Below are positions 1,180 to 35,374 of a DNA stretch of 35,817 nt, piece after piece. The stretch comes from Priapulus caudatus (lineage: Eukaryota; Priapulida; Priapulimorpha; Priapulimorphida; Priapulidae). Position numbers and translations under genes: made by a program. The notes under the pieces are model-generated. The model had not been told where the DNA came from. It saw only the letters and a list, made by a program, of their open reading frames with translations, and ran no database searches. The stretch lies in NCBI RefSeq assembly GCF_000485595.1, contig NW_014577099.1, positions 226,077 to 261,893 of the forward strand. The letters are read 5' to 3'. Within the stretch, counting starts at the first letter, position 1. Each line of letters begins with the position of its first letter.

Positions 1180-4100
1180 TGCGGCATCTGCACATTCACG
1201 CAGCTTCTACACAAACAGAATCCTGTATTCTCTACTTGACGACTTCAATAAGGCCAAGCAGCAAGTTGGCAGCTTGGCAGAAGACCCAGGAAATGATGTG
1301 AAACTGCAGATGTATGCACTGTTTAAACAGGTATGTATTGTAAGCAACAGCAGGAATGTGTCCACGTGTAGACAGCATGAACTCTATGTTATTGCCTTTG
1401 CCACGTTTAATATGACAGACAGTTTATGCAGAATTCATGCTAATGTAGTACGGTGTTTTAGCTTTGAGATAGAGACATGGGAATTTGGCACATTAGTCAG
1501 GCAAATGTCCAGGGACGGCCGGCAAGGGACCCAGATGACATTAGCTACATATATTAATAGCAGACATAATTCAGCGTGGACAGAACGCATTTCAGAATGG
1601 TACGAACGCATAGAGTAACGAAGTGATGACGTCACGGTGGCATGACAACGAACCTACTGGTTCTACACAATCATATGCTCTGGTAACATTAACTGCGTGT
1701 CGTGTTTTGTACCCGATTGTAACCATCATTCTGAGAGTCATTATTGCAGTTTTTATAGATTTCCAAAGGATGGAAGTGAAAAGCAACGAAAATTTTTTTT
1801 TTTTAATTCATTAAATATTGTAAGATCGACTTGCTACCGATGCTTTACCGCTGTCTGCAGCGCACACACTCGTGTTTTACGTACGCACAACATTTTCACG
1901 CAGTTAATGTTATGGAGCCAGTGAGTTGTGTAGAACCAGCCCGTACGTTGTCTTGACAACGTGACGTCACACTTCGGTACTCTATTAACTTCAACAAGAA
2001 TGCGACGCGGTTTATTAAACGGCCATCATTAACCGTGCACGTCGACGGTGGTCGGCGTTCCTTCTTACATTAGTCGCGACCGGTCGTTAGATCCACGACC
2101 CGTGCCATAAATTAGTTGAAGGTTATAAGGTCGCGACGACGAGGCGGACGTTTTAAAAAGTAGGGGTTCCGATGAGAATGAGAGAGACGCCGGCATCCTC
2201 TAACGAGTATGCGCACACTGTTTCGACTGTGCTGTTCATCTGCGTCTATAATAAAACCGTACTTGCCACCGCTTACTCAGCTGTTACGTCTACTGTCTAC
2301 GAACCACATATTCGACTCTACACTAAGCCCCAATGCTAAATCATGTAGCAAGTGTAACAGACTTGTTCTATGTACTGATATTTTTAAATAGTGAACTGAC
2401 CAGCTATATTCTGTACTTATCTCATTTGATTTATTGGTAGCCATGCTTACGTTTCTTGTTTTCTATGTGCAGAGCATGATAGGGAGTTGTAATGCACCAA
2501 AGCCTGGCATGATGGATTTTGTAGGCAAAGCAAAGTGGACTGCATGGAGCTCATTGGGAGATCTTTCGCAAGTGAGTTAACACACACTAGTAGTAATATT
2601 GCATCTATATGGAAATAGCATTTACTGGTAATATGCTAAGGAGTGAGATTAAACAATAAAAAAAAAATTTAATCCATTTTTAAATTTACCTAATCCTGTT
2701 AAATGCATCACACTCCTAAATTCTTTGATAACAAGTGATCTATCAGCTTGAAAAGCTAACTATGTGCTTAACGTTTAGGATGATGCCAAAAAGCAATACA
2801 TTGATGTGGTTAATGGACTGCTGGCTAATGAGGCATCTGCTCAACCTGTATCACCTCAAGCAGCAGCACCACCAGGTGGCTATCACACCCTTGTAGTGAG
2901 CAACGAGGGAGGAGTGTTTACCATCAGAATCAACCGACCAGACAAAAAGAATGCCCTCACCATGCAGGTGGGTATAGTGTTCATGTGCTTCAAATTCAAT
3001 TTTGCAACTGGCAATGTGATAGTGTAAATATAAGTGTTGGCTGTGTGAAGGAAGGAACACAGGTTATAACTAGACAGAGTGCACTCACGGAGAGTGCATA
3101 CCTCCGCCAGAGACATACGCCATACGACTCGCGAACACACGAATAACCCACGATATACGCCAGCGTACTGACATGTACATGCTGGCTTGCTGGCTTGCTG
3201 CTCGCTCGCTTGTAGCAGCCGCTCGCTGCTGCTCGCTCACATGTACACGCTCGCTGGCTCGCTGGCTGACGCGCTAATATCGATCGCGCGAACACACTTA
3301 ACACACTAACACACGAACACACGAGAGCGAAAACATAACCTTCTCCAACTCCGTTGGGCGGAGGTAATTATAGATGTGTGACTATAGTATGGCTGATAGG
3401 GTCTATGTCCCCCAGGGTACTGCCGGAACGTACCCTGGGTACGGTCCGGTATACCCGAAACGTACCCTGGTACTAAATACTACTATCTAATATGCTGGAC
3501 CGTACCTCGCCTACTCCACTAACGAGTCTAGGGAGTCGCCTACGCCTACTCCCTAACCCTAACCCTAACCCTAACCATATCAGCTAGATAGTTACCAGGG
3601 TACGTTTCGGTATACCGGACCGTACCCAGGGTACGTTCCGGCAGTACCCTGGGGGACATAGACCCTATGAGCGCTAGTATGAGTATCATCTGTGTATCAT
3701 CTTCTTCTCCTTTAGACATATGAGGAGCTCATTAAAGCACTTGACCAAGCTAGCAATGACAAAACAGTTGTTTTGGCTGCTGTGACCGGTAAGCTGTATT
3801 CGACACCTGGATATCGGTCAATTAGTTTCTAAAATTTGTTTGGGTTATCCGGGAAAACATTTACTGCTCTATTATTCACTTCAATCATAAGGTTTACACA
3901 ATATATGGATACATATGGCTGAATTTGTGTACAGCCTGAACAGCTCTGCATAACTGAATGTAATCTGTGACACGTTATTATGGAGCCCCATTATGATAGA
4001 AATGAAGAATAAGTAAGTATAATAAAAGTAGTATCATAAATAGCACAAATAACAATGCTAATAGTTACTTTGAAACTTCCTTTTGGTCACTTTTGTTGCA

Positions 4101-5226
4101 CATGTAAATTCTGGCGGTGTTATAGAACTGAACTGATACTGTAAAACTTATCGATTTTGGCACGATCAAATTAATAAATTGGAATATTGATAATGCACAA
4201 TAGTTTATTATGCAGTTCGTAATAATTCATAGTGTTATTATTCAGGTACGGGAGACTACTACTCCAGTGGCAATGACCTGAGCAACTTTGCAAATATTCA
4301 ACCTGATCAGATTGCTAAGATGGCTGATGATGCTCGTGATATACTCATGTAATTATCAATTACAGGCTTAGAGCATTGAAATAAATATGTGAGCAGACAA
4401 AACTTTTCCAGAAGAAACTTGCTTATTTCTAGCATTGAAGATGATACCCACTTAACTTGAGCCATCAAAAACCTCTAGTCAAAGTTCATTATTTTTAAGT
4501 TGTGCATTTGTACTTTCCAATACACGTGAAAGGTATGCAAAAATGCTTGGGATCATGTTTATTAAATTTTTTTTACCTAGAACGTGTCAATAATGCGAAA
4601 TAGTTTATAAATTTGCCATCCCTTAGCATGCTTGTGATATCAGCAATGACAGTGAGGTGTGGCATAATTTATTTTGATGAGTAGCTCCTTTTCACATTGT
4701 CTTTATATGCCATGGCTAAATACCATGAAATTACTGAATGACTGTTGAGATTTTTACTTGCAGACGGTTCGTGGGTGCCTTTATTGATTTCCCTAAGCCC
4801 CTTATATCACTCGTGAATGGACCAGCAGTTGGAGTGATGGTGACTACACTAGGACTATATGATGCTGTCTATGCTACGGATAAGGTGAGAAGGAGATAAG
4901 TGCTACACTTCATTTTGACTTGTGACTATGCAGGTAGTACTGCAGTTGGTATTGTTGTCGTTGTTGTTGTTAATTGCTATTGCTAAGGAGTAAAACGTTG
5001 TTATTATTACGATTATTATTTTTAGTAGTAGTAGTGGTGATAGTGGTAGTTGTAGTAGTAGTAGTGGCAGCAGTAGCAGCAGCAGTAGCAGCAGCAGCAG
5101 TAGTAGAAGTAGTAGAAGTAGTAGAAGTAGTAGTAGATGTAGTAGTAGTAGTAGCAGTAGCAGTAGCAGTAGCAGTAGCAGTAGAGCAGTAGCAGTAGCA
5201 GTAGCAGTAGCAGTAGCAGTAGCAGC

Positions 5227-5257
<31 letters not shown>

Positions 5258-6985
5258 GCAGCAGCAGCAGCAGCAGTAGCAGTTCCTCAACTTCATGTAA
5301 ATAGCATAACACGACTATAATGATTGCAATTACTGGATGTAGTTTGGGTTTATAAATAATATTCAGTTGTAATTGGTTATGCATGTGTGACTCTGTGTTA
5401 TTACTGTTTATAGGCAACGTTTCACACACCGTTCAGCCAGCTTGGACAGACCCCTGAAGGTTGCTCCTCTTACACCTTTCCTAAACTAATGGGAACTGGA
5501 AAGGTATGACTGATGCTTTTATATGACATGTATATGCATTTTATATATGACATGTATGTCATTTTATATGACATATATATGACATGTATATGCATGAAAT
5601 AGATTTTTGGAATTATAATCTGTGCTTAACAGCATTGCTATTCCATCCTATATAATTGCATAGGCAATCCTATAATTTTCTTGATAAATACCTATACTTA
5701 ACTGAAGACATATTACTTGATTATTTTATATGTCAACGATACAGTTAATTATTACTATTTTACTGGTCATTCGATTATTCCTATACAAAAGCTTATTGAC
5801 TTCCTCACTGTATGTTTTTGCATTGAATTTCATTATATGATTGGGGATGCATTCCTTCAAAAAATGGTTTATCCTTACCAAAGTTATCATAACAGGGGGC
5901 GTTACTGTATATATGAATACAACATTGAGCATTAAAGAATATGAACCAATTATTTATAAAAAATTATAATAAAAAAAGCAAGTATATGTAATTGTTTGAT
6001 TGCACTCGACAATGTTTGTCACACCTGCAACAAGCAATTATCACGATATATATTCCTATTTTATTTTTATCTTTATTTTATTTTATTAGGGTTTTTGTAA
6101 AATCTTATGTACAAAGTATACATAACGAAACATCTTTTGTTTGTAGGCTGCGGAAATGTTGTTGTTCAACCAGAAAATTAGTGCTCATGAGGCATGCCAA
6201 AGGGACCTGGTTACAGAGGTGTTCCCTGATAGTTCCTTCCATAAGGAAGTGACTGCCCGACTACAGCGACATGCAAAGTACCCTGTAAAGGTAAGTTTGG
6301 TGTGCAGTCAGTTGTGTCGAATACAGAAGGTATGTCTTAATGTCTTTGCATGCTGAAGACTATTGTAAGAGACCATAGATTATATTAATGTTATCATAAC
6401 CATACAAACTGTACACTTTCATGACCTTTTCCTTAACATGCACAAGCAGCATAGTTTGTACACCTGTGATGTCGGTAATCGTGAGTGGTACCTTACATAG
6501 CTGAACATTGGCAAATAAAGTTTAATAGTGGTTTTTGGCAATGTAAATGGGTTTTTGCTTGCTAAGATTTTTTGATACTCGCGAGTCATGGTGTTTACCC
6601 AATCATTGTGTGCTTGGCAGCAGTTGCATCTGAAATCTAACCCAAGGATAAATGTGAAATACATCCAATAAGAAACAAACCATTCTATACATGAAACATA
6701 TACATGAAAATTGATTAAAAATAGAAAAGAACATGTATGTCGTCACAGTTTGGAACCGACTTCAGAATGGTGAGTATACTTCAACGTGGTGTTTCGTATG
6801 TTTTATAAAATTGCGTGTTTATCTTACAGTCGATGGTGTACGCCAAGAAGTTGTACCGGGACCAGGAAAGGGAGATACTACACAAGATCAATGCTCAAGA
6901 GTGTGACAGGCTGGTTGAGCGATGGCAGTCAGAGGACTGTATTAATGCCATCATGAGCTTTTTCTCTAAGAAATCCAAAATGTAG
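1180..6985 (+). CDS. ECI2: Enoyl-CoA delta isomerase 2-like protein (ACBP + isomerase domains), 5'-partial
   Basis: Nine exons join in frame: 1180-1330, 2473-2571, 2779-2967, 3716-3788, 4246-4348, 4764-4884, 5414-5503, 6147-6290, 6830-6985. They give about 374 residues plus the stop; family members are near 390, so only a short N-terminal exon is missing. The first two exons and the start of the third form an acyl-CoA-binding domain (YALFKQ, then GKAKWTAW). After a Ala/Pro/Gln linker, a crotonase fold begins at [19 protein letters not shown]. Oxyanion-hole segments SGNDL and GPAVG are present, and the catalytic Glu is in [14 protein letters not shown] (codon near 5456). The protein ends SKKSKM; -SKM is a variant of the peroxisomal PTS1 signal. 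By family knowledge it shifts 3-cis/trans double bonds to 2-trans-enoyl-CoA during unsaturated fatty acid beta-oxidation in peroxisomes and/or mitochondria. Introns carry several mobile elements. Family is certain; the ends of exon 1 are not known. Confidence 0.93.
1610..1985. mobile_element. Inverted-repeat element carrying a truncated THAP domain (P-like, internally deleted)
   Basis: Arms of about 89 bp (1610-1699 and 1897-1985) are imperfect inverted repeats, starting ATAGAGTAMCGAAGTG and containing TGACGTCAC and GGTTCTACACAA. Between them, about 1700-1800 in the plus direction reads [19 protein letters not shown] followed by FPKDG. This is the start of a C2CH THAP zinc finger (C-x4-C, then the YRFPKD block). 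The frame then runs into a poly-T tract, and the second CxxH pair and the AVPTIF motif are absent. THAP domains occur at the N-terminus of P-element transposases and their domesticated relatives. No clear target duplication was seen. It lies in the ECI2 intron 1331-2472. Confidence 0.65.
1986..2472. other. Intronic sequence with a GC-rich patch of unknown nature
   Basis: About 2000-2200 is markedly richer in GC and CpG than its surroundings (CGTCGACGG, GTCGCGACC), then returns to AT-rich intron ending in a TGTGCAG acceptor. It adjoins the THAP inverted-repeat element and may be remnant transposon DNA. A 60-codon frame at 2209-2391 with a CSKC motif is too short to identify. Confidence 0.3.
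3069..3367. repeat. Interspersed repeat with CCTCCGCC-type ends (complete copy)
   Basis: It starts ACTAGACAGAGTGCACTCAC and runs through GCATACCTCCGCC. The middle is a GCTGGCTTGCTG / GCTCGCTGGCTC low-complexity core, and the end is CAACTCCGTTGGGCGGAGGTAA. The same sequence in the opposite orientation occurs at 17444-18390 (interrupted) and 17061-17274 (partial), which proves it is a repeat family. It has no coding capacity. In one frame the end reads [10 protein letters not shown], a peptide I associate with spurious ORFs in many marine invertebrate genomes (recollection, not checked). It lies in the ECI2 intron 2968-3715. Confidence 0.7.
3396..3668. repeat. Palindromic element with telomeric repeat core (family 1, copy 1)
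   Basis: Near-perfect inverted arms of about 78 bp (3396-3473 and 3590-3668) start ATAGGGTCTATGTCCCCCAG. The arms contain smaller hairpins (CAGGGTAC/GTACCCTG, CCGGTATACCGG). The 115-bp centre holds four CCCTAA units at 3551-3574 next to CGCCTACTCC. A second copy lies at 18613-18918 in inverse orientation. A 3-bp TGA occurs at both borders if the element is taken as TAGGGTC to GACCCTA, which is weak support for a target duplication. Confidence 0.85.
5022..5284. repeat. Intronic AGT/AGC trinucleotide repeat
   Basis: About 260 bp made almost only of AGT, AGC and related triplets. Long (AGCAGT)n blocks occur at 5153-5220, and CAG-type runs of eight or more units lie near 5221-5276, broken by one ACT. 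It lies in the ECI2 intron 4885-5413. All long frames here encode homopolymer-like peptides and are not genes. Confidence 0.95.
5504..6146. other. ECI2 intron, AT-rich, with a short ATGACATGTAT minisatellite
   Basis: The intron runs from donor GTATGA at 5504 to acceptor TTTGTAG. Around 5518-5598 the phrase ATGACATGTATATGCAT/TTTATAT recurs three to four times. The remainder shows nothing recognisable. Confidence 0.5.
6291..6829. other. ECI2 last intron, no feature seen
   Basis: It is bounded by a strong donor GTAAGT and the acceptor ATCTTACAG. The content is ordinary AT-rich intron without repeats or ORFs that I can support. Confidence 0.5.
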
Positions 6986-7351: not shown

Positions 7352-7362
7352 AATAAAATAAA
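7352..7362 (+). promoter_or_regulatory. Poly(A) signals of ECI2
   Basis: Two overlapping AATAAA hexamers lie 367-377 bases after the ECI2 stop codon, the first canonical signals in the plausible 3' UTR. Confidence 0.55.
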
Positions 7363-7383
7363 CGTGTTATTCTGTATAACAAA

Positions 7384-14833: not shown

Positions 14834-17060
14834 CTACAAGGTGAAAAAAACAAAGGAAACATTTTAGGCTCAGCCACATTATAATGCATTCCTGTATAAT
14901 GTGTGCTCTTATTTGTATGCCAACACTTGTTCTATAGCCATGGTTCTATGTTTAGTAGTATAAATAGATTCATGGTAGAACCATGAACACATACATACAT
15001 CTCATATACTTATATTCATGACTTTTATAACACACCAATGTGGAAAAAAGATAAAATGAAGTCGTGTCATTTATATTTTATTAGAATATGTAGTTAATTA
15101 GAAATAAGAATTATAATTAGTTGTGAATCTTTATCTAAATCCATATTTGACTAGATCAATTAAATTTAGAATCAAATTTAGATTTATACATTAACAATTT
15201 AATTCTTAATTAATTTTGCCATTGTATAAATAAATTAAGCCAGTGTAAAAAGAGAAAGAAGTTAGAACGATAGCTTTGACTTGACTCTGACTCTAAGTAA
15301 GACTAAGAGACAGCTCTCGCTGCTGTGACAACTCTGTTACTGAATGGAAACACAGCTGTTTCCAGTTCTCCCTACGGGGCTACAATTCTCAAAGGGCCTC
15401 TAAAAGTTCCAAGAGCCATAACTGCAAACTTATGAATGAAAATGAGAATGTGGAACTTTTTCAAATGTTCTGCTATACCCTCGCTATGTAGTGAAAAAAT
15501 CCACGGGCAGATGTTGCTATGTTACATTTTATTATATCAATAGTAGGCATAGTGTTGTTCTGATGATCAATTATAATCGAAAGTCGAACGTTTCCAGCTA
15601 TCGATTACATAATCGATTAAGAATACAAATGTGCGATCATCGAAGTTAGCTATCGTGACGTAAGAACAATGTCGCATATTTTCATAATGCTAGTGTTTTA
15701 CTCATTACTTATTTAATTTTAACTGCAAAAATGCTAAATGTACGATTTATCCTGAGAGTATCATTCAATTTTGTATATTGTATTTCAACAAATGGTGCAT
15801 AAAAAACACCAACTAAAACTTGAACAAGAATTTAATCATTCAGCTGATGATGAATGGAGTAGGTGAGGGAACAGACAACGAGTTGAAAGAAAGTGGTGAG
15901 ACGTAGCCACAGATAAAATATGGTAGAGAATAATAGGGATAAACAGAAAGGGAGTAGGTGTCAATATAAGGAATGGGGAGTAAGGAAGAAAATAGCGAGG
16001 AGAGTTGCGAATTGAATCTCGAATGCTTAGATATAATCCAAATGCAATCTTACTTAGTACCTCGCACATTACAATCAATGATTATAGTGAACAAAGTCTT
16101 TCCTTAATTAAGTTTTATTGTGCCCAGATGGCAAGCAGGGATCATTGGTAAAATTATGACTCAATGGACTTTAGCCAAATTTCCAGGATTTCCCAGGACC
16201 AAGCATGAAAATAGCCTACATCTCAGGTTTATAATAACTGTGGTTTTTGGTGAAATTACTGAATAAAATAGAGCTCGATCAGCTTTGATATGGAGTGGTG
16301 CTGTAAAAATATATTGTAAAAAACATACTGCTCACTTGCAAAAATGAAGTAAATATCTGCTTTCAAATTGTGAATTTTAACCTTTATTTGGATTGTGAAT
16401 AGGCCCCATATTTGGGCCCAAATCTAGCCTACATAAAACCCTGAGACATCTCAGGTCAGACTGCACTCAGAGAACATAGATGGATTATATAAACCATAGA
16501 AGGTATTATAACAGGACGCCGGATGCAGGAGCGAGCCCCGATCGCAGGAACATGCATGTTCTATACACATGCACTGCATTTCCTCTAAAGGTGCACTATA
16601 CATTGGTTGCATATGTATCACATTGATTGAGTTTCAAATTAGTTACTTAAGAGCGAGTTTATATTTCATCTTCTGTGTTTGGTGGTTATAGCTTACTGAT
16701 TTACACTGATTATGCAAATTTATTTACAAATTCTGCATGTGCGAGTATCCATAACCAACGCTTCTGTAACGAAGGGAATTACCTAGATACAAATACGTAG
16801 CTCAACTGAGTAGGTTACTACTCTGCTACTAAGGCCACACATTTATTAGAACTTTATAAATGTCTAATCTAGCCTACCGCTAATATCAGATTGTTACTGT
16901 AATTAGTGTTATAACTTATGTTATGTAAGGCGATCGGCCTTAATTATTAGTAGTAAATTAGTAAATCGTCCTTATTAATTAGTGCACTTGTTGTTATCGC
17001 CACATCGCCATCGCCCATCGGGTATAGAGCAAACATGCGCTACGAACAGAAAGGTCATAT
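14834..17060. other. Region upstream of the visible RMDN exons; no gene identified
   Basis: The missing first RMDN exon (minus strand, ending in phase 0) should lie here or further right. Only weak candidates were seen, for example a three-codon frame near 16063 before GTACTAAG, and none is supported. Sequence near 15560-15660 has repeated ATCGATTA/TAATCGAT words, probably decayed repeat DNA. Confidence 0.4.
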
Positions 17061-17308
17061 TTACCTCCGCCCAACGGAGTTGGAGGAGGTTATGTTTTCG
17101 CTCTCGTGTGCGTGTGTTTGTGTGTTCGTGTGTTCGCGCGATCGATATTAGCGCGTCAGCCAGCGAGCCAGCGAGCCAGCGAGCCAGCCAGTGCAGCGAG
17201 CCAGCGAGCATGTACATATCAGCGAGCAGCAGCAACGAGCGGCTGCTACGAGCGATCGAGCAGCAAGCCAGCTAGATACAATAATGTAACCCAAACACAG
17301 GATATCCT
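17061..17308. repeat. Partial copy of the CCTCCGCC-end repeat plus inserted tail (copy A beside gap)
   Basis: It begins TTACCTCCGCCCAACGGAG and carries the GCCAGCGAGCCAGCGAGCC core. It continues past AAGCCAGC into TAGATACAATAATGTAACCC, ending at GGATATCCT. It matches 17444-17691 over its whole 248 bp with only about two differences that I can see. Confidence 0.8.
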
Positions 17309-17382
17309 AATAATTATCCTATCCAATCACCGTCCTGGACATCATCTCTATCCTTGAACTGAATGGGCAAACACACGCAGTA

Positions 17383-17392: not shown

Positions 17393-17443
17393 GTGTGTCC
17401 GCGCTCATGCGCGCAGTGCGCGTGACAAATTTATTACTGCTTA

Positions 17444-18390
17444 TTACCTCCGCCCAACGGAGTTGGAGGAGGTTATGTTTTCGCTCTCGTGTGCGTGTGT
17501 TCGTGTGTTCGTGTGTTCGCGCGATCGATATTAGCGCGTCAGCCAGCGAGCCAGCGAGCCAGCGAGCCAGCCAGTGCAGCGAGCCAGCGAGCGTGTACAT
17601 ATCAGCGAGCAGCAGCAACGAGCGGCTGCTACGAGCGATCGAGCAGCAAGCCAGCTAGATACAATAATGTAACCCAAACACAGGATATCCTGTTTTTGGG
17701 TTTCCATTATTGTTAGTGTGTTCGATTTGCTTCCCCAGAGCCACCTGGGTTAACCTGGGTACGAAATCGAACGCATCTGGGTTAGGGAAGATAAACAAAT
17801 GGTTTTTGGGTTAACCCGGGTTAATTATCATCATGGATGCCAGTGACAAGAAAAAAAGAATAGCAATTGCAATCTAAGAATGGGCTCAAGGATAGAGAGC
17901 ATGTCCAGTAATAATAATTATCCTATCCAATCACCGTCCTGGACATCATCTCTATCCTTGAACTGAATGGGCAAACACACGCAGTCATTGACAGTCCTGC
18001 TTCATTACTACTGCTACATTCATGCAATTCCCGCACTGATGTATCGTTGCCATGCATGGTGTCATTGCAATGGATTGTGGGATACTTCCCCAAGCCCCCC
18101 CCCCAAGTGAGCGGCTCGGCGAGCGGGTTACTTCATCCTCACCTGGGTTGACCCGGGTAACGCAAAAATACCACGTGACTGCCAAATCGAACGTATTTGG
18201 GGCTGGCCCGAGTAGACCCAGGTTAACTTGGGGAAGCAAATCGAACGCACTATGTATCTACAAGCCAGCAAGCCAGCGTGTACATGTCAGTACGCTGGCG
18301 TATATCATGGCTTATTCGTGTGTTTGTGAGTCGTATGGCGTATGTCGCTGGCGGAGGTATGCACTCTCCGTGAGTGCACTCTGTCTAGTA
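17444..18390. repeat. CCTCCGCC-end repeat split by nested insertions
   Basis: The left part 17444-17655 and right part about 18261-18390 together equal the complete element at 3069-3367 in reverse orientation. The right part runs from AGCCAGCAAGCCAGCGTG to TGCACTCTGTCTAGTA. The intervening 600 bp is an insertion that starts TAGATACA and ends TGTATCTA, and it contains the MITE at 17714-18249. This gives a relative order of events: outer repeat, then insertion, then MITE. Confidence 0.75.
17714..18249. mobile_element. MITE with GTGYGTTCGATTTGC termini and TA target duplication
   Basis: The inverted termini GTGTGTTCGATTTGCTTCCC and GGGGAAGCAAATCGAACGCAC are flanked by TA at both ends. Subterminal copies of ACCTGGGTTAACCTGGG and internal AATCGAACG repeats occur in both orientations. 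There is no transposase frame. TA flanks fit a TA-targeting DNA transposon, but the superfamily is not assigned. The stretch 17913-17986 inside it recurs at 17309-17382 beside the assembly gap. Confidence 0.65.
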
Positions 18391-18612
18391 ATATCTATGT
18401 GATAATGTGTAGGTAGGTAGTGCATACTCCCTCGATCCTCGCAGTACATCGATTACTAGATGCATACATAATCATGCTCGTTGCTAGCCACAAGTTCCCT
18501 TCTCGCTTAACACTACGTTGGCGACGACGTGTAACAGTCGGAGAGCCTGGTCGGTTTAGCTCGTAGCCAACCTCATTATTACTATTAGTATTAGCTCAAG
18601 TACTAGGGCTCA

Positions 18613-18918
18613 TAGGGTCTATGTCCCCCAGGGTACTGCCGGAATGTACCCTGGGTACGGTCCGGTATACCTGGTAACTATCTGATATGGTTAGGGTTAG
18701 GGTTAGGGTTAGGGTTAGGGTTAGGGTTAGGGAGTAGGCGTAGGCGACTCCATAGACTCGTTAGTGGAGTAGGCGAGGTACGGTCCGGCATATTAGATAG
18801 TACCAGCAGAGCATATAAATCACGTTGATTTATATGTTCTGGTACCAGGGTACGTGTTCCGGTATACCAGACCGTACCCAGGGTACGTTCCGGCAGTACC
18901 CTGGGGGACATAGACCCT
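18613..18918. repeat. Palindromic element with telomeric repeat core (family 1, copy 2)
   Basis: Its ends (TAGGGTCTATGTCCCCCAGG and the inverse) and its CGCCTACTCC-type core are the same as at 3396-3668, but the interior is inverted. The core has seven perfect TTAGGG units (18691-18732). An extra hairpin CATATAAATCA-CGT-TGATTTATATG (18815-18839) is present here and not in copy 1. CTCA flanks both borders if the right end is taken at 18918. Confidence 0.85.
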
Positions 18919-18940
18919 CTCAGCAGTACTACTACTAGGC

Positions 18941-18983
18941 ATAGCCCGCGTACAGTTGCCCCAGGCAACCGTACGCGGGCTAT
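18941..18983. repeat. 43-bp near-perfect hairpin
   Basis: ATAGCCCGCGTAC (18941-18953) pairs with GTACGCGGGCTAT (18971-18983). A nested GTTGCC-CCA-GGCAAC stem follows with one A/C mismatch between. It begins 22 bp after the family 1 telomeric palindrome. Confidence 0.8.
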
Positions 18984-19707
18984 AGTACTAAATCAGTAGA
19001 TGTATATTAACATTATAGTAGCTCATTATACCATATACCAGCCTTACGTACAGTAGCAGGTTTACTATGCGCAAATCGCTAATACTATTATTATATACAA
19101 TTATTATATATTACTATTAGTATTAGTATTAGTATTATTAGTATTACAATATATTATATTTACTAATGAGTAATGTCAGTAATGACAATCCCAATGGCAA
19201 TGGCAGTAATGCGCAATCGGCAACCTAGCTCCAAGAAACGGTTAGCTAATCCTAGCTCCAAGCTAGGGTTAGAAATAATTGACGTTATTGACGGTGTATT
19301 GACGTTAGTCACACAGCCTGGTCGGGTTATCGGCAACCCTACTCCGTACTCGCTTGTACACTTCACTGCACTGCAGCTTACTTACCATAGCCCACGTCAA
19401 TGGATTGTTGTAGACACGATATTTAATTCTCAAGGGTGTTTTCCGAACCGTGCAAATTATTCTGCGAAGAAGCATGTTTGTTTTGTTCCAGTTATCACTG
19501 AGAAAAGACGCCGATGAGCTGACTCTGTGTCCCACGTTTCTACAAGTATGTTTACTGGAGAGTGCTGCCCCCTGTACTCCACTTTATGTGACTTCTTCAA
19601 TTTACCCAGAGATGGCGCTGATTTCACCCGCGCATTCAAAGCAGTGATTCAAAGCTCAGATTCAAAGCTGCAGAGACTGACTTTTTATCTGGTTTCACGT
19701 CGTTATA
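18984..19707. other. MRNIP upstream region with simple repeats
   Basis: It starts with ATT/AGT triplet stretches (TATTAGTATTAGTATTAG near 19105-19145). It then has unremarkable sequence with short frames on both strands that overlap each other and resemble no protein I know. The last 100 bases before the MRNIP start include GAGATGGCGCTG and should hold its promoter and 5' UTR; no TATA box is evident. Confidence 0.4.
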
Positions 19708-22700
19708 ATGCCTCAGATCTTTAATGTGCTAAAATGCTGCTCCTGTGGCATGTTTCAAGTTCAGCAAAAGACAAAGGCTCGAAAATGGAGCTGTAAAGTT
19801 TGCAGTGTTAAACAAAGCGTGATAAAGGTCTCAGTGGCCACATGGCACATGTCATGTGTTTGTATACATCTAATGAGTAATGTAGAACCACTTTGGCAGC
19901 GTTCCAGAACGACCCGTGCATCTAATTTCTCCCCGTCCCGTTGAACTACTAAACGTTTTATAACACAAAGTACATGAAAAAACTGTAAATACATTATACT
20001 TTCTAAATTCGAGTGAAACTTCTTTGTCTCTACAGTACAGATTAACAGCTTTTTTAGCTTTTTCAGAGCCATTTTCTTAGAAAAACTCAAATAATTTTCA
20101 ATTCGATTAACTAGAGGAGAGGTTTCAAACGGGAGGACTGGACGTGATCACTTACCTTTCATTTGAGCCCAAGATCGACCTCCTCCTTGCAGGAATTCAA
20201 CGGGACGGGCCATTCAAAGACCCCCCATCAAAAATTAAAACGCTGTGGCTACGGGTACGGCAGCCGTATCTTAATGTCTCGAGGCTGGAGGTACGGCAGT
20301 CCATTTGCTTTCATACTTAACGAGACAAAGATGGCGGCGGGTGGCGCCAGATTTCGAAATAATGCCTTGGGAAATAAATTAACAATTTGAGAGTTTAGAT
20401 GAGCTAGAACCCTAACCCTAACCCTAAACCTAACCCTATTAACGCCAAACGGGGCTTCAACGAACGACGGCTGCCGTACCTCCAGCCACTGCGAATAACG
20501 TTTGCAGGCGTTTTGCAGATAAACAATATAGTCAAACTCCATAATCGTCAACACAAACGGAAAAACATTGTAACATTATTTGATATTTAGTGGTTATAAT
20601 AAGTTATAATACTTATAGAAATTTATTAGTTATCATAATCATTTAATGTAAAAATTACTTCTTACTCCTGGTTATATCTATGATCACAGGCACAGGCACT
20701 TGGAGCATTTCAATAAAATATAATGCTAAATAAATACGAATTCTATTTACTACCAATGTCTTAACATTTCTCTACTCTCTTTCGCCTAGTATTGCCGATA
20801 ATTACCTGTAAATGCCGGTCAAATGCTCCTCTGCAACGCACAGGTACACCGCACGCACGGCGCACGCCGCTACACATTTATACTTATACACATATATCGC
20901 CGGCATCCAATAGGCAGCTGTTTGAGTGGGGGTGGTGGCTTTACAATTACAGGCTGCTAACATGATGCCTGTCCCATATTCTCTCATCGTGACCCATGCA
21001 CGGATAGAGAGATGGTATAATCAGAGACTGGGAGTGCATAACACGTGCTCGGATAACGTAGATGGGACTCTCATTGTTCACATGATAGAAGTTGACTGAT
21101 ACACCACTAGGGCTGTAACGATCCACCGAAATCGAATCGGATCGAGATTCTCTTCCCTCGATCCGATCCTCGATATGTTTCCCCGTATTTTCGATTCCAC
21201 TTCGAAACCACTTTTTTCCTCCAATAGATGGCGGCACTACGCTATATACTGTGGAGTGTTACTCAGCGGCTGTGCAGTGTATTATATATACTCTCTAGAC
21301 TCTCTAGTCTATTCACCATTTAGTATTCATTGGCAATTTCTAATAATTTATTATTGCAAAATAATGAAAATATAAAAAATAAGATAACATTTCAATATTT
21401 TGGGAATCGAATCGAAGGATTCGAATCGAGAGGCTTGTGTATCGTTACAGCCCTGTACATGCACCACTAACCCAACCGCAGAACAGTCGATCGTAGGCAT
21501 CCAGGCTTTTGTGGTTCTGAAAGTCCTTGAGAGTATAAAATGGACTCGGCTAGAATGTTAGGTAGTAAATTCACGAGATCCATATAAGTACGTGATGGGC
21601 ACAAGTTGTGGTCCTCGCTCCATTCTCATACGGGTGTCGATTCCCAATGCACGCAATTTTCTCGAGATAGCGTGCTTTGGCTACGTTGTCTAGTGAATCA
21701 AAGTACTTGTCCATACTACGTACACTTCAGACAGTTGGCAAATGTGCATACACCAGATGTTATAAAAAGCTGCGTTTGATAGCTATATATATATGCAGTA
21801 AAATCGGTGAAATTTCTGAACACTCGATGTAAACAAACTCGAGTCCATGAACATATGTGTTGCATGCAATCTCTCGACACTAATAAACCTGCATGCAAAG
21901 CCCTGCAAAACCGGACCTGTATAATCTCATTGAACTCTAGCAGACTAGCACCCCAACCCACGCTGATAAACCTGCCTGCAACACCCTGTAAAACCGGGTC
22001 TGCACAATCATATCGAACTCTAGCATCCCAAAAAAACACGCGCTGGTAAACCTGTCTGCAAAACCGGGATCCACTTTACTATAATAACACAGTCACTATC
22101 GTATGTACAATCTATCGATGTCAAATAGGTCGATTGTGCATATCGGTAACACGTGTTCGCAATTCTGGAACCAGTATGGCCGGCGGCATGGAATTTTTAG
22201 CTATTTTTAGTGCAAGTCGCGGAACCCTCTATAGCAATAAATATGTCCTTATACCCCTGTCACACCTTCACGCGATCACGCTTGCGCTCCCACTGCGACC
22301 TGAAAAGTATGAAAGCGCGAGGAAAAGCGCAGTAAGTTCTCTGAGAACGAGTTGGTGACACAGTGGAAACTGTCAAGAACGGAAGAGGGTCGCCATGAGC
22401 TACCTTGAGCGCCAAACCTCGGCGCTTGTGTTGGTCCGAATCAAAACAAGCGCAGCGGGTCGGCGCTCTGTAATGAGCGGTGTAATGACGCAGTACAGTC
22501 GCCATGGCAGCGCAAAGCGAACTACATGAGCGTATCGTGGACGTAGCAACAACGCATAGAAGCGACTTGGGGTCGCAGAAATCGTCCACTGCGACTGGTT
22601 TGCGACTGCTGTATGCTCATTGGGCTCTCCATACGTGCCTCTTCCGTTCTTATTGCGCCGTTACTGCGCTTCCACTACGCTTGCTGGGCGTGTTTCTGCT

Positions 22701-25700
22701 CATTCTACGTCCACACTGCGCTGCCACTGAGACTATGACGCTCGTAATACGTCCAAGGCGTTGTTCCCACGTTTGCAATAGCCAATAGGCTCACAGAGCG
22801 TTCTTATTACGATCCCACTTTCACTGACCCCCCCACACATTTTTGTATAAATACAGCTTCATCTTCTATACACAATCAGTGTGCATCTGCTCTTCACCAT
22901 GGCCGCACACAGGCAGAATGTGCTAATTGTACTACAGAATTAGCACATATGCGCAGCAGGCACAAGATTACCAGCCCCTTGTCAACATCATTAGAAGCAG
23001 AAGAAGGAGGAGGGAAAGAAGGGAGAGGAGATGCTGGGTTCGACCATGGTTAGACGTGGGGAGAAGAGTTCAGTTTGGCCACTATCACTGCCTAATGGCC
23101 GAGCTACGACACGAAGATCCTGCATTCTTCTTTAACTTTCTGAGAGTACAACCAAAGATGTTTGATGAGCTCCTAGCAAGACTTGGTCCAAGATGCACCA
23201 AACAAGACACCATAATAGGAAGGCTATGGAACCAGGGTTGAAGATTGCAATTATTATGCGCCACCTAGCAACTGGTGACAAGTACGCCAGTATGAAGTTT
23301 GACTTCAGAGTTCCTCATAACACCATGTCTGTCCTAGTACGAGAAGTCTGCCAGGCCATCGTAGATGAGTACAAGGAGGAAGTCATCAGCTGTCCAATCT
23401 CCCCTGAAGAAGGGCGTGCCGTTGCTGAAATGTTTGCACGTAGATGGAACGTCCCTCATGCCTGTGGAGCCCTTGATCGAAAACATGTTGCCTGCAGAAA
23501 GCCAGCGAACAGTGGAAGCCTTTATCACAACTATAAAGGCTTCTTTTCCATTGTTCTAATGGGCCTCGTCGATGCGGACTATAAGTTCCTCTGGATAGAT
23601 GTTGGAGGCTACGGACACATGTCAGATGCACAGATCTTCAATGATTCAGAGCTGAATGAGTGCCTAGTAGATGGGACCATTTGTCTTCCTCCAGCAGACC
23701 CCCTACCAAATGACGACAGGGACATGTCATATTTCTTCCTGGCTGATGATGCGCTCGCGATGCGGACCAACATGATGAAGCCTTACTCGATGCGCAAGAT
23801 GACCAAAGAGCATAGGATCTACAACTACAGGATATCTAGAGGGCGTGGCGTTGTGGAGAATGCCTTTGGCATCCTTGCCCAACGTTGGCAGATTCTCCTG
23901 ACCACCATGCAGCATGAACCTGACACCATACGACTGATCGTCGAGGCCTGCGTCTGTCTTCATAATTTGATGAGACTGCGTTATCCTACCATTCAGAATG
24001 CTGCCTTGGATGCGGAGGATGTCAACCACCAACTGATCCCAGGTGCTTGGAGGGCTGATGCTAACATGCATGAGCTGAACGACATTAGAGGGAACAACCG
24101 TGACACCACTGCAGCCAAGAAACAACGAGAATACCTCAAGCTGCACTTCAATTCACCTGCAGGCTGCTAGCATGATATTAAAAGTCAGTTACAAAAAAGA
24201 CAGTTCAAAAGTTCACAAGTACACAGTACACAATATTGTATGTTTGAAATAAATAATTATGGTAATGTTAAAATAAATATATTTTGTTCTGTTTCTTTTA
24301 TGCATAATGCCTTGCTTATGTAATTTCTTAAATGTCTTTAAATAAAGTTATATTAACTTAAACTTAAACAAAAAAATCCCAATTCCCAAACATAAAAGTC
24401 AGACGTCCCCAAACCTGCAAAATAAAATAAACTGCGCACGCGCAGTGAGCGAGTTGCAAACGTATTGAGAGCGTAGTAAGAGCGCAGCGAGAGCTACTTG
24501 GACGCACTGAGAGCGCACAGAGCGCAGTGGGAGCGCACTGAGAGCGCACAGAGCGCAGTGGGAGCGCACTGAGAGCGCACAGAGCGCAGTGGGAGCGCAC
24601 TGAGAGCGCACAGAGCGCAGTGGGAACGCACTGAAGATCAAACTGGGAATGCATAGGATCGCAGTGAGAGCGTAATAAGCGAGTCAAGAGCGTACTGTAA
24701 GCTACTGTTAAGCTGCATGGTGTCACACCATGGTCACAGCACGCCATGGATTTCCGTGGGCTGCGCTTTTCCTCGCGCTTTCATACTTTTCAGGTCGCAG
24801 TGGGAGCGCGAGCGTGATCGCGGGAAGGTGTGACAGGGGTATTAGGTGGCAGGAAGGCGGAAAAACGCCGTTGAACCGATGCTACTCGCCTGTTTTCGAC
24901 CGTTTGTGACCATTGCAACGCTCGCGTATTTCACGCCATATCACTTGTATTCTCTGTGCTACGGCCCTAATATTTATGCTCGTACTTGCGCGCGTCATTT
25001 ACGCACTTATACTACTCGGTATCCGCAGTCAATTACCTCAACATACGTTGATATTGTGTTTGTTTAAGATATTATTATTAGCATGATTATGTTGTTTCAT
25101 TTTCATCACCTACTATTTATAATACTACCTATTATTTCATACTGTAGTATTAGAATGAAATGAGTACCTATTAAGCCGCTAACGTGGCTGATAACTATTG
25201 TGGCACTGGTGTAAATGGTACATTTTACCTATCCAGCTTCTATTCGACACATTAGAGAGGTAGAAGGAAAATGTACACTGTTGGGTATGTGAGGTGGTCT
25301 TCTAGGAGTCTTGGTTGTGTGGGAAATGTTGGTGAAAGTATGACATCTCTTTATCTTGTTTCTAATGCTGATGATTAGGTTTGCTCTGCACAGACGTTCT
25401 GGATAAATGCTATGACAGCTAGTATACAGTGTTACCGGGGACTATATATAATGGTATATTTATCGCGTCGGATCGAGTTTTGGCGCCAAACGCGAGCTTT
25501 GGTGTGCAGACGACCTCCACAAAAAACTTTCAGTTTTCGGAGCTTTTCTGTTTTCAGAACTTTGGATAATAGTGTGTACTGTATACAATGTGTACATGTT
25601 CTTTATACAGATATATGGGCAAGGAACAGGACCAGAGTGCAGGGAACATGTTAAGACCTGTAATACCGTTCAAGGCCAAAAAGATGAAATTGCACATCAG

Positions 25701-30354: not shown

Positions 30355-30356
<2 letters not shown>

Positions 30357-30397
<41 letters not shown>
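30357..30397. repeat. (CT)n microsatellite
   Basis: About twenty CT dinucleotides, inside a longer C/T-rich block of the LTR element's interior (30040-30490). Long frames here (Leu/Ser/Pro, or Arg/Glu on the other strand) are products of this composition. Confidence 0.95.
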
Positions 30398-30399
<2 letters not shown>

Positions 30400-30789
30400 T
30401 CCGTCTCTCGTCCGCTGTCCGTTTCTCTCTCTCCAGTTTTCTTGCCAGCGGTGTACCCAGCGACTCCTGTATCTTCTTCCTTCTCCATCTTCCTTGCGTA
30501 GTATGGCTCGTAGATCGACAACGAAGTGCCTTACGTTGCGTCCGCAAAGGAATACCCAGGTGTTTGACTGTCACTGGCACAAAAAATGTAACGTTGAATT
30601 AAAAGTTCGATGTATATATAAATGATATAGAAATCCAAACTTGTGTGGTAACCTGAATAAACTTTAATATTTTACACACAGTGTGTCCATCTTGCACAAA
30701 GGAACAAAGAAACGCGCACACGCGCATAAGCGCGTGTGCTCACTCCCGCGACCACCACCAGATTCCCCCACATTTTAGCCATAACCATG

Positions 30790-31329
30790 CAGGGGCGTAG
30801 CCAGGATTTTCAAAGTTGTAGGCACGACTATCTGAGCGGAGCGCCATCATCAGTTGGCGCGGAGCGTACAAGAAAATTTTTGGTTTTACAAACCCCCCAG
30901 ATGGCCGGAAACGGCCCTTCCCGAGTGTTCATTCTGGTTCCCTGGCCTCTTGCTAACTTGAGACACCTCATTCAATATCACTTTTAAACCCAAAAAACAC
31001 AAAACTGAGTTATACAATAAGTGTTACGAACGATTAAAATGTTAAAAAACTGAACAAGATCGGATCCTAGTCTTTTTTCGGCGGGTAGAGCTGTTGAATG
31101 AAACGCGACGCGATAGAAATGACAGCCTAGATGACAGAAGAATAGGTCACCTAATTTAGCCATATTCCTTGCTAACGTTCATTTCAATAGTTTTTCGCTG
31201 TCTAGACTCTTAAACTCGTCCAGCAAGCTTATGGATTTGAATTATGGGTGTTTAAAAAAAGAAGAAGATAACTTGGCCAAAAAAAGTGTAGGCCCGGGCC
31301 TACAGTGCTACATACTGGCTACGCCCCTG
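30790..31329. mobile_element. hAT-like MITE inserted in the LTR
   Basis: It starts CAGGGGCGTAGCCAGGATTT and ends CTGGCTACGCCCCTG, with CCATG on both sides (30785-30789 and 31330-31334). The sister LTR shows the uninterrupted site (ATAACCCTGCATTCTGG at about 29205), which proves insertion of 540 bp. No transposase frame. The terminus is a very common type in invertebrate genomes (recollection). Confidence 0.85.
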
Positions 31330-31724
31330 CCATGCATTCTGGTACAACACATTCACACTGATGTGTCAAACTGCTAGATACAAAAGATGCGACGCGTCAC
31401 GCTCACTGCTAAAATAATAGTCTGGCTACGTGAAACGAACAGCTGTTACATATGTGTTTTGCATGCAATCTTCTGCATTTTAGCTGCGCTACCTCTTTCT
31501 CTGTACGTTCCGTACTTTCTTCTACTGTTTCCCTTTGCCTCTCAGTCTACTCGCCCATCTTATCTGTTGTTTAATTGTATTTGCTCATTTGCTGATTAAA
31601 ATTTTGACTAGTTAAAAACTAAAATTTGTCATCTCTCACTCTTTCTCTGTTCCTCCTCTCCTCTCCTCTCTATCTTCTTCTCTCCCACTCTGAGTCTCGT
31701 ACCCTCTACCTCTCTCCCTCTGTT

Positions 31725-31911
31725 CGCCAAGTGTCCCATGACTGATTTCGTTACGAAATCAACTACTGCGAGTGATTTCGTTACGAAATCAGCTACTGCG
31801 AGTGATTTTGTTACGAAATCAGCTACTGCGAGTGATTTCGTTACGAAATCATGCTACACTTGGCGCATGACTTGATTTCGTTCCAAAATCATTGATTTCG
31901 TAACGAAATCA
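31725..31911. repeat. Array of six 19-bp palindromes, phased in multiples of 10 bp
   Basis: TGATTTCGTTACGAAATCA or a close variant begins at 31743, 31773, 31803, 31833, 31873 and 31893. The first four are in 30-bp units with ACTACTGCGAG or GCTACTGCGAG spacers. CGCCAAGTGT (31725-31734) and its inverse ACACTTGGCG (31856-31865) bracket these four. Confidence 0.9.
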
Positions 31912-31935
31912 ATAAGACGCCTCGATCGCTCGCCG

Positions 31936-33483
31936 TCCCTTTCTCTGCCTCCCTCCCTCCTCGCTCTCTCACTCACTTACCACCCTCGAACGCTTCGCGA
32001 TCCCCTCCCTCCTTCCCTCCCTCTCACTCAGCCACCTCGATCCCTCTCTCCCTCCTCCCTCCTCCTCCCTCCCTCCCTCTCTCACTCACTCACTTACCAC
32101 TTCGACCCCCTCCCTCCCTCCCTCCCTCACCACCTTCTCCCCTCCTCCGCCACCTCCTCCACCACCTTCTTCCCCTCCTCTACCTTCTTCCCCTCCTCTA
32201 CCTTCTTCCCCTTCTCCTTCCCCACCACCTTCTCCCCCTTCTACTCCACCAGCTTCTCCCCCTCCTCTACTTCCTCCACAATCTCCCACTCTCCTCTACC
32301 TTCTCCACCGTCTCCCACCATCCTCTACATCCTCCCTCTTCTACCTTCTTCCCCTCCTCTACCTCCTCTCTCCCCTATCTCCCCACTCCTCGTCCTCCTC
32401 CACCACATTCTCCCCTCCTCTACCTCCTCCCCCCTCCTTCTCCACCACTTTCTCCCCCTCCTCTACCTCCTCCGTCTTCTCCCCGCCATCCTCTACCTAC
32501 TCCCTCTTCTACCTTCTCCCTCTCCTCTACCTTCTCCCTCTCCTCTACCTCTTCCACCCTCTCCCACCATCCTCGACCTCCTCCCTCTTCTACCTTCTCC
32601 GCCTCTACTACCTCCTCTCTCCCCTATCGCCCCACTCCTCGTCCTCCTCCACCACATTCTCCCCCTCCTCTACCTCCTCCCTCCTCTACCTCCTCCCCCT
32701 CCTTCACCACTTTCTCCCCCTCCTCTACCTCCTCCGTCTTCTCCCACCATCCTCTACCTACTTCCTCTTCTACCTTCTCCCTCTCCTTTACTTCCTCCAC
32801 CTTCTTCCACCATCCTTGACCTCCTCCCTCTTCTACCTTCTCCCCCTCCACTACCTCCTCTCTCCCCTATCTCTCAACTCCCCCTCCCCTCCACCACATT
32901 CTCCCCTTCTACCTCCTCCCTCCTCTACCTCCTCCCCCACTACCTTCTACCCTCCTCTTCCCCCTCCTTCTCCACCACTTTCTCCCCCTCCTCAACCTCC
33001 TCCGTCTTCTCCCACCATCCTCTACCTACTCCCTCTTCTACTTCTACCTCTACCTTCTCTACCTCTTCCACTTTCTCCCACCATCCTCGACCTCCTCCCT
33101 CTTCTACCTTCTCCCCCTCCACTACCTCCTCTCTCCCCTATCTCCCAATTCCCCCTCCCCTCCACCACATTCTCCCCTTCTACCTCCTCCTTCCTCTACC
33201 TCCTCCTCTTCCCCCACCACCTACCCTCATCCTCGACCTCCTTTATGTACCCCTTTTCTACCTCCTTCCTGTCCCCCTTTTCTACCTCCTCCCCTTCTCC
33301 CCTCCTCCTCCGTCTTCCTTTCCCTCGTCCTCCTACTTCCTCCTACTCCGTCTTCCTACCTCTTCTACCTCCACCCCTTCTCCCCTCCTCCTCGCCCACT
33401 ATCTTCTCCCTCGTCCTCTACCTTCTCTCCTTCCTCCTGTACCACCTTCTCCCCTCCTCATATACCTCGTCCCTTTTTCTCTA
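31936..33483. repeat. G-depleted C/T-rich tandem repeat tract, about 1.5 kb
   Basis: The plus strand is nearly free of G and consists of CTCCTCTACCTCC-like words. A higher-order unit of about 250 bp is visible: CCTCCTCTCTCCCCTATC starts at 32362, 32611, 32854 (variant spacing) and 33125. The 229-codon plus frame at 32816-33505 (Ser/Pro/Leu/Thr only) and Glu/Gly-rich minus frames follow from composition and are not called as genes. Confidence 0.9.
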
Positions 33484-33660
33484 TTTCGATCCACGGATCG
33501 AATGATTCGATTCACGGATTGCATTATTCGATCCGTAAATCGAAGCATTCAATCCGTGAATTTTATAAGTGATAAAATCAACCATAAAACAAAAAATCGA
33601 ATTATGAAACAAAATACATGCCATATGTGTGTACCAAGATAATGGCTTGGGAGTAGAAAC
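33484..33660. repeat. Short degenerate repeats of ATTCGATTCACGGAT
   Basis: About five diverged copies of TTCGATYCACGGATCGAATG-like words in both orientations between 33484 and 33560, after which AT-rich spacer leads to the tRNA gene. Confidence 0.5.
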
Positions 33661-33666
33661 AAAAAA
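33661..33666 (-). terminator. RNA polymerase III terminator of tRNA-Phe
   Basis: Six T residues on the minus strand, 7 bases after the tRNA 3' end. Confidence 0.8.
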
Positions 33667-33672
33667 GTTTCT

Positions 33673-33745
33673 TGCCGAAACCCGGGATTGAACCAGGGAC
33701 CTTTAGATCTTCAGTCTAACGCTCTCCCAACTGAGCTATTTCGGC
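33673..33745 (-). tRNA. tRNA-Phe (anticodon GAA)
   Basis: On the minus strand a complete 73-nt cloverleaf can be folded. The acceptor GCCGAAA pairs with TTTCGGC plus discriminator A. The A box is TAGCTCAGTTGGG, the anticodon loop CTGAAGA and the B box GGTTCAATCCC. There is no intron and CCA is not encoded, as in eukaryotic nuclear tRNA genes. Confidence 0.97.
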
Positions 33746-34360
33746 CAACTGACAATTTATTAAACAACGATAACAGCCTAGTAATGTAGTTGTAACGTTA
33801 TGACTTTGTGATAATAATACATGTGTTTTCTATCTTTACTTTTATAATATGTTGTACCTTTCTTAAAAATATTAGCGTAAATATTCGCTAAATCGTCTTC
33901 TTTCTGCAAATAATTATGTTAGCTGTCTCGCGAGAAAACGAGGCGCGGCACACGCACTATCCGCCATTATTGGCGGTCTGCAGTATTCTTTAGGAATTGT
34001 TCACGTGAAACGTGTTTGTAGAGTTCTGCAGAATAAATCCATTTATTTTTACTGACATTGCATTCATACACTTGGATTTTTCATCAAAAGACTGTTAACT
34101 TTGTCATACTTGATCACACTACGGAAATATATTTTTTAAATTTAGATTTGTACGGAACTTCAACTAGGTCACAATTTCGTGTATGGGATGTCTGGATTCA
34201 ACTTTGATCACCAGGTACGCCGTAACGCGCGCAAGTCGACTTATCCTAGTCGTCGACTACGTGCCTAAAATGCAGCGTATACATGATATGTCAGGTCGGT
34301 CGCTACGTATAATTAGCTGAGAGTGAAAAAAACAGCCAAACTAAAACTTCAACGTAGTGT
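33746..34360. other. Spacer with promoter-like motifs and a possible short first exon
   Basis: TCTCGCGAGA at 33926-33935 is the palindromic core-promoter motif known in animals, followed by GCGCGGCACACGCAC and CCGCCATTATTGGCGG (YY1-like GCCAT) near 33960. At 34183 an ATG opens MGCLDSTLITR, reaching a consensus CCAG|GTACGC donor after 34214. MGC starts are typical of lipid-anchored proteins such as G-alpha subunits. With no second exon in view this remains only a candidate plus-strand gene start. Confidence 0.25.
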
Positions 34361-34411
34361 CAGGAGTCTAGTATCAATAAGACAATATCTATTGATACTG
34401 ATAGACTCCTG
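34361..34411. repeat. 51-bp hairpin with CAGGAGTCTA ends
   Basis: CAGGAGTCTAGTATCAATA is followed by its inverse (with three extra bases), ending TAGACTCCTG. The same terminal word in inverse orientation recurs at 35611-35630, so it could mark one end of a larger unit. Confidence 0.75.
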
Positions 34412-34422
34412 CTAATACTAAT

Positions 34423-34945
34423 GCAGATGGGGTCGTTGTCGTATCAGGTACTACAGCTCAAGGGGTCGTTGTATCAGGTACTACAGTACAGATATGTACC
34501 CGAGGTACATATATATGTATACACAAAGTGTACCAGACTTAATTGTACTACAGAAGTGTACCCTAATCCTAACCCTAACCCTAACCCTAGCCCTAACCCT
34601 AACCCTAACCCTAAACATACCTCATAGTCATATAAACATAATACTAAACAACCTAAAACTACCTCGGGTACATATCTGTAGTACCTGATACGACAACGAC
34701 CCCATCTGCGGTACTACAGTACAGATATATCATATGTACCCGAGGTAGTTTTAGGTTGTTTAGTATTACTATTAAAATGTAGTATTATGTTTATATTTTT
34801 ATATGAGGTACGGTATGTTTAGGGTTAGGGTTAAGGTTAGGGTTAGGGTACACTTCTGTAGTACAAGTCTGGTACACTTTGTTTATACATATATGTACCT
34901 CAGGTACATATCTGTAGTACCTGATACGACAACGACCCCTTGAGC
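34423..34945. repeat. Interleaved pair of palindromes with telomeric cores (family 2)
   Basis: Unit 1 (34423-34709) has ends GCAGATGGGGTCGTTGTCG and the exact inverse, with a core of nine CCCTAA-type units (34561-34614, two variant). A second, outer pair of ends, GCTCAAGGGGTCGTTG (34456) and its inverse (ending 34945), overlaps unit 1. Between 34710 and 34945 lies the reverse of the unit 1 interior with five TTAGGG-type units (34819-34848). The arms carry GTATCAGGTACTACAG and GTACCYGAGGTA. Confidence 0.88.
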
Positions 34946-35233
34946 GTTACTAGTTGGCAACCTTGTCAGCGATAATATCGGTCAGACGTCATTGATCATA
35001 CATGACGACAGTAAAAAGTTAACACGGGAATATACGCACGCATACGTAGTCAGGATTCTCCCCAGGAATTTCAGAAGGCATGTCAGGTATTCGGGCAATT
35101 TATCCTCGATTGCCAATACAAAAACCAAACTAGGAGTAGGATTGGGCCATGGCATGTATGTGCCATACGATCAATTCGAAAACGTATAGGGCGCAAACCC
35201 AATTCTGATTTCTGTGTATCATCAACTGATGCA
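34946..35233. other. Spacer between telomere-cored palindromes; nothing recognised
   Basis: Unique-looking sequence without ORF similarity, repeat or RNA gene that I can support. Confidence 0.4.
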
Positions 35234-35374
35234 CAGACTTTCCGTATATCAAGGAATGATGCAAAAACCCTAACCCTAACCCTAAGTCATAAAGTATATA
35301 ACCTTAGGTATCACGAAGTGTGTTAGGGTTAGGGTTAGGGTTTTTGCATCATTCCTTGATATACGGAAAGTCTG
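35234..35374. repeat. Perfect 52-bp inverted repeat with telomeric units in both arms (family 3)
   Basis: The left arm 35234-35285 begins CAGACTTTCCGTATATCAAG and ends in three CCCTAA units. The right arm 35323-35374 is its exact inverse and begins with three TTAGGG units. The loop is 37 bases. The arms show no mismatch at all. Confidence 0.93.

Follow-up and report, generated by a model that had tools for sequence, protein, structure and literature searches.

How do short tracts of the telomeric repeat TTAGGG come to lie inside inverted-repeat elements? The question is raised by a 35,817-nucleotide stretch of the Priapulus caudatus genome (contig NW_014577099.1, positions 226,077–261,893 of the forward strand; hereafter the window), where the initial annotation, made from the sequence alone, had placed every telomeric tract inside a palindrome. 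We followed these tracts through the assembly containing the window, which comprises 385,217,808 bases in 2,952 contigs. The element families labeled A/C, E, and F are dispersed in high copy number, each family carries its tract at one position, the number of units varies, and copies have variant units in common. The explanation we favor, and hold with reasonable confidence, is that the tracts are inherited internal segments of non-autonomous families of miniature inverted-repeat transposable elements (MITEs) that appear to have been shuffled at the tract, the best studied of them having 9-bp target-site duplications (TSDs) like those of Mutator or Mutator-like elements (MULEs). The letters used as family names (A/C, D, E, F, G, K, L, M, N, P) were assigned in this analysis.

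A motif scan of the window located seven tracts, all at the positions given in the initial annotation. Together with an alignment of copies, the scan places a four-unit CCCTAA tract at the joint of A/C copy 1 (3551–3576, minus strand) and a seven-unit TTAGGG tract in A/C copy 2 (18689–18732, plus strand). Combined with flank comparison, it places a CCCTAA tract with one variant unit in the D element (20408–20439, minus strand), a CCCTAA tract in the left half of the E element (34560–34614, minus strand), and a TTAGGG tract in its right half (34819–34849, plus strand). The F element holds a CCCTAA tract in its left arm (35266–35285, minus strand) and a TTAGGG tract in its right arm (35322–35342, plus strand), both from the scan. 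Five inverted-repeat elements hold every TTAGGG or CCCTAA tract of at least two units, and seven single hexamers lie outside them, so the statement that no tract falls outside a palindromic element is correct for two or more units.

The inverted arms around the seven tracts, scored with the tract bases excluded, reach 153, 111, 34, 136, 136, 64, and 64 in window order, compared with 31, 47, and 96 at the 90th, 95th, and 99th percentiles of 400 random window positions. Scores above the 95th percentile are reached by the arms at 3.4, 18.6, 34.5, and 35.3 kb; the arms at 20.4 kb, with a score of 34, fall below it and are weakly palindromic, not significant alone. The claim that every tract sits in an inverted repeat thus applies to all five elements, with the 20.4 kb case as its weak member. 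Comparison with random positions rules out chance palindromes, bearing out the view that coincidence was unlikely. The description of the tracts as enclosed was loose for the 34.5 and 35.3 kb elements, which have a tract in each arm, and at least four distinct arm sequences is a correct count when the 3.4 and 18.6 kb elements are taken as one family and each of the other three as its own.

The 3.4 and 18.6 kb elements are indeed one family in opposite orientation, copy 1 being homologous to 18601–18931. Both were delimited by the ends of their terminal inverted repeats (TIRs) and by TSDs matching at 7 of 9 positions. Copy 1 (3392–3672, minus strand by tract orientation; TSD TATAGTATG/GCTAGTATG; arms 3381–3475 and 3589–3684) sits in an intron beside ACBP-domain exons, and copy 2 (18608–18924, plus strand; TSD AGTACTAGG/AGTACTACT; aligned with 25 other copies) contains a small nested palindrome (CAGAGCATATAAATCA...) at ~18807–18842. 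A 29-base piece of the A/C TIR has 723 + 757 = 1,480 exact matches in the genome and none for the reversed control; viral and prokaryote contigs, a set that may leave out near records, contain no exact match to the TIR. Pieces of another repeat family (ACCTCCGCCCAACGGAGTTGG...) adjoin both A/C copies, at 3065–3371, 17057–17308, 17443–17691, and 18261–18393.

In the alignment of 26 A/C copies, from which three (L056, L066, and L068) of the 20 loci picked in one set were left out, the tract lies at a single point, mostly as GATATGG-(TTAGGG)n-AGTAGGCG with n from ~1 to ~20. Six of those 20 loci (L065–L070) had been picked for the absence of a listed (TTAGGG)3 close to their TIR. A further 20 copies were selected solely by TIR, as single exact TIR places on C4–C8, and 19 of them keep at least one hexamer; L099 has none, and the scrambled L110 was counted as keeping its tract on one hexamer within 400 bases. 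Among individual copies, L106 has exactly one TTAGGG unit at the joint, L097 is broken at the tract, and L059 has degenerate units only. The variant unit TTAGGA recurs in copies with the left variant GGTCACTATTTG (L067, L069, L070, L096, L109), though not only there, which points to copying. TSDs of 9 bp match at 9/9 positions in 12 of 40 copies, at 8 in 9, and at 7 in 7 (8 or 9 in 21/40), whereas shuffled flanks give 0.6%, 1.0%, and 3.8%, respectively (8 or 9: 1.7%), and the target consensus is NNNA(C/G)TNNN. L081 (C3:348500–350600) holds two A/C copies ~810 bases apart with near-identical flanks, and so represents either a tandem duplication of recent date or a copy duplicated in assembly.

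The E element of the window (34423–34945) is a strandless palindromic form with a tract in each half, an arm score of 136, ends read by eye, and no clear TSD. It has TIR matches at 34430, 34681, and 34917 and an inner inverted repeat at 34639–34768. With up to one mismatch, the E TIR occurs 606 + 602 = 1,208 times in the genome (control 0); this copy number and the ~1,480 matches of A/C rule out the single-copy assembly artefact that the initial annotation had named as the alternative for the arms. A tract stands before TACACTTCTG or close by in all 20 E copies picked by TIR pair, including L124, whose left half is shortened, and L128, whose left half is different. In these 20 copies plus L085 (n = 21), TSDs match at 9/9 positions in 8, at 8 in 5, and at 7 in 6 (8 or 9 in 13/21), versus 1.8%, 1.8%, and 4.6% for shuffled flanks (8 or 9: 3.6%). 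The E target consensus is identical to that of A/C, and the common consensus and duplication length suggest that the same or a related transposase probably moves both families. The elements are therefore several families, as had been proposed, but not wholly unrelated, since A/C and E have these features in common and further families also make 8–9 bp duplications. Because the tract occupies a fixed internal point in nearly all A/C and E copies, it was inherited by transposition rather than added locus by locus.

Family F is for the most part palindromic, and both arms bear a tract. The window representative (35234–35374, strandless), found by inverted-repeat search, has 52-nt arms with 100% complementarity around a 37-nt loop and is probably a truncated copy; other members are L075, L037, and L131–L138. 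A 30-base piece of the F right half, with up to one mismatch, has 146 + 146 genome matches (control 0), and the right half preceded by one hexamer is matched exactly at 82 + 94 places, many of them forming inverted pairs at short distance (control 0). The D element (20241–20493, minus strand; arm score 34) lies between an MRNIP-like first exon and a Harbinger-type transposon; we recognize it as an element because its relative L080 has the same tract flanks together with an exact 9-bp duplication (TTCTATGTA). Single-copy TSDs, searched with wide offsets and weaker than the family statistics, are exact at 9 bp for D, K, and N, exact at 8 bp for F and M, 11 bp for J, and 8/9 by eye for G and L; the same search gave none for H, I, L072, L046, and L034 or for the window copies of D, E, and F.

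Genome-wide, (TTAGGG)3 has 4,479 + 4,536 = 9,015 overlapping matches and its reversed unit 0 + 2, so it is this unit that is special and not any hexamer. Our sample consists of 44 separate tracts, each with three or more exact units, in the 36 stretches retrieved for the first 100 places in the match list; it covers C1, C2, and C3 up to 775 kb. The sampled density of ~one per 99 kb extrapolates to roughly 3,900 tracts in the genome. Most sampled tracts lie inside inverted repeats: arms score at least 40 around 26 of the 44 and at least 64 around 23, compared with 3.9% and 2.6% of 844 random positions in 20 longer stretches. The enrichment anticipated by the initial annotation is thus present, and the opposite outcome, with most tracts outside inverted repeats, was not observed in the sample. 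Of three stretches taken at arbitrary positions, L088 contained an L element with a tract, and the other two held no tract. Exact TSD matches of at least 8 occur in 6/19 tract-bearing rows, 0/14 tract-less rows, and 13/870 random positions, a contrast in the anticipated direction, with numbers too few to rest on and blurred by a tract-bearing row (L042) that is the telomeric repeat itself, a nominally tract-less window row (34456–34945) that is really element E, and another (L042, 6985–7283) that starts within a tract.

The tract also marks where element halves change partners. Among 57 tracts of at least two units, 138 pairs have both flanks in common, 50 the left only, and 38 the right only, with the caution, unfavorable to our interpretation, that flank pairs within a family are not independent. 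In the clearest one-sided cases, homology stops exactly at the tract. Specifically, the F right half is joined to the loop left, to the left flank of L037:3955, to the left flank of L042:7445, and to a module P (L139, L140). Ten F loci were picked by their right half: the left is the loop in seven and P in two, and L134 lacks a tract at that point. L077 and L088, whose ends differ, likewise have module P before their tract, and an AT-rich left half, resembling by eye a tRNA short interspersed element, is followed by several different right halves. L128 combines the E right half with a left half whose tract-less continuation occurs in L045, the junction being in register with TTAGGG. Several families therefore have one half in common, differ in the other, and change at the tract, and on these alignments the telomeric DNA resembles a joint at which elements are shuffled. 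A bolder version, to which we give somewhat less than even weight, is that TTAGGG acts in this animal as a universal joint in transposon evolution: broken elements of one transposase class would gain or carry tracts, families would swap halves by pairing or joining at them, and the mobile families so founded would disperse interstitial telomere DNA through the genome. Module P starts with the TATA-box-like TATATAAG ~30 bases before the tract (L077, L088, L139, L140); we speculate that a transcript from this start would read UUAGGG.

A/C and E have the properties of MITEs, being short, with TIRs, many dispersed copies (most listed pairs have ~190–290 bp between TIRs), and 9-bp target duplications, and the ~9-bp duplication is also that of Mutator/MULE elements. 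Mutator-type MITEs make 9-bp target duplications. A limited search found no autonomous A/C or E copy; a candidate on C4, with TIRs 2.2 kb apart, proved on reading to be two separate MITEs. Family scans of the window proteins detected no MULE; they found a Harbinger-type transposase and host-gene exons, comprising ACBP-domain exons and an MRNIP match below its cut-off.

The history we propose would begin when an internal break in one transposon copy was repaired and TTAGGG repeats were gained in the process, by telomerase addition or telomere copying. Transposition would have amplified this copy, and broken copies would then have undergone template switching or end joining with one another, with the dispersed tracts as the homologous sequence. 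The resulting chimeric families would carry the tract onward, with slippage making the unit number drift. A telomerase-RNA flank beside the tracts was considered and dropped, since the right flanks differ among families. Several observations weigh against this history. No tract-less pre-insertion form of A/C or E was found, so the action of telomerase can only be inferred. Most A/C and E copies retain their usual halves, which makes exchange at the tract infrequent per copy; in some one-sided pairs homology ends 30–190 bases from the tract, and L049, with E-type ends and an A/C core, has its partner change points outside it. The arms of 18 of the 44 sampled tracts score below 40, and two of these tracts (L047 and L071) match no other sampled tract. 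Finally, the MULE transposase domain has 46 genome matches, and no transposase is tied to the A/C or E ends.

Fixed position and variable unit number would also fit plain hitch-hiking, in which each family gained a telomere-like microsatellite or grew one from a single TTAGGG and the tract plays no part in exchange. The single unit at the joint of L106 also speaks for it, and other MITEs carrying hitch-hiking microsatellites are cited in PMC6947457. But the two matches of the reversed unit against 9,015 argue that general hexamer slippage is not the source, the same unit would have had to be gained by many families separately, and halves change partner at the tract; we regard this explanation as unlikely, though the strongest of the rivals. 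The retention of the tract in nearly all TIR-picked copies, and its recurrence in many families, could instead mean that it is a working part, as a binding site for telomere proteins or transposase or as an aid to replication or nuclear placement. Neighboring internal DNA is kept too, however, and copies with one or two intact units, or degenerate units only (L059), reveal no visible constraint on tract length, which leaves a working role quite improbable.

The initial annotation had offered two explanations. The first, a class of non-autonomous elements with telomeric tracts as a constant internal part, agrees with the 19/20 A/C and 20/20 E copies. The second, that telomerase or telomere-copying repair acts repeatedly on palindromic elements and adds tracts copy by copy, draws on the telomeric repeats established at break sites in vertebrates (PMC7215372 and PMC8537989) and on the in-register junction of L128. 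Given that almost all A/C and E copies have the tract at one and the same junction and variant units in common, it is already contradicted as the main source for these families and is marginally less probable still than a working role, although telomerase action could account for founding events. Programmed breakage with telomere addition, as in DNA elimination, is a highly implausible reading, drawing on the presence of repeats and nothing further: the tracts lie inside dispersed transposons that have ordinary sequence to the left and right, and some adjoin exons of ordinary genes.

Inheritance within shuffled MITE families, our preferred explanation, can be set beside known systems. Mutator-like MITEs and Pack-MULEs likewise have TIRs, 9-bp duplications, high copy number, and foreign internal sequence, and share with the copies read here a lack of coding capacity; here, several families carry a telomeric repeat as cargo at a fixed joint, and the link to a MULE transposase is putative. 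Coates (2011), Hikosaka and Kawahara (2004), and Satovic and Plohl (2013) reportedly described MITEs in which microsatellites hitch-hike or tandem repeats lie internally, families that also carry and spread a tandem repeat, whereas the repeat found in several Priapulus families is telomeric and falls where partners change. The telomere-bearing elements of ciliates are transposons with telomeric repeats at their ends rather than internally. Vertebrate short interstitial telomeric sequences, as described in PMC7215372 and PMC8537989, are similar in being short internal (TTAGGG)n of variable unit number, but in vertebrates every locus arose by its own insertion where a break was repaired, and spread by transposons was judged not to be the case for the TERC-flanked tracts; here, most sampled tracts lie in dispersed transposon families, and A/C and E tracts occupy a fixed place inside a dispersed element instead of separate empty sites. 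Published counts are 229 human interstitial loci at a threshold of at least four units, different from the three used here (PMC7215372), and 1,229 interstitial tracts in C. elegans (PMC9071541, a nematode review). Judged by titles and the beginnings of abstracts, none of the papers listed by literature searches describes telomeric repeats as belonging to MITE families.

The window holds further features. A transposon at 22247–24846 has 86-nt inverted repeats (97%) and a DDE_Tnp_4 open frame at 23169–24170, and we take it to be PIF/Harbinger-like. A CCT-rich, strand-asymmetric tandem array of 1.4 kb occupies 32003–33466, and its first kilobase has a GC skew of about −0.95. A compact palindrome at 18938–18985 (TAGCCCGCGTAC...GTACGCGGGCTA) resembles sequence flanking the tract locus L072.

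Interstitial telomeric DNA is usually taken as the scar of break repair or chromosome fusion, and an origin in mobile elements makes such readings potentially misleading. Telomere repeats are a candidate driver of new MITE families, and the data open a direct genome-wide test of short tandem repeats as exchange points between transposons.

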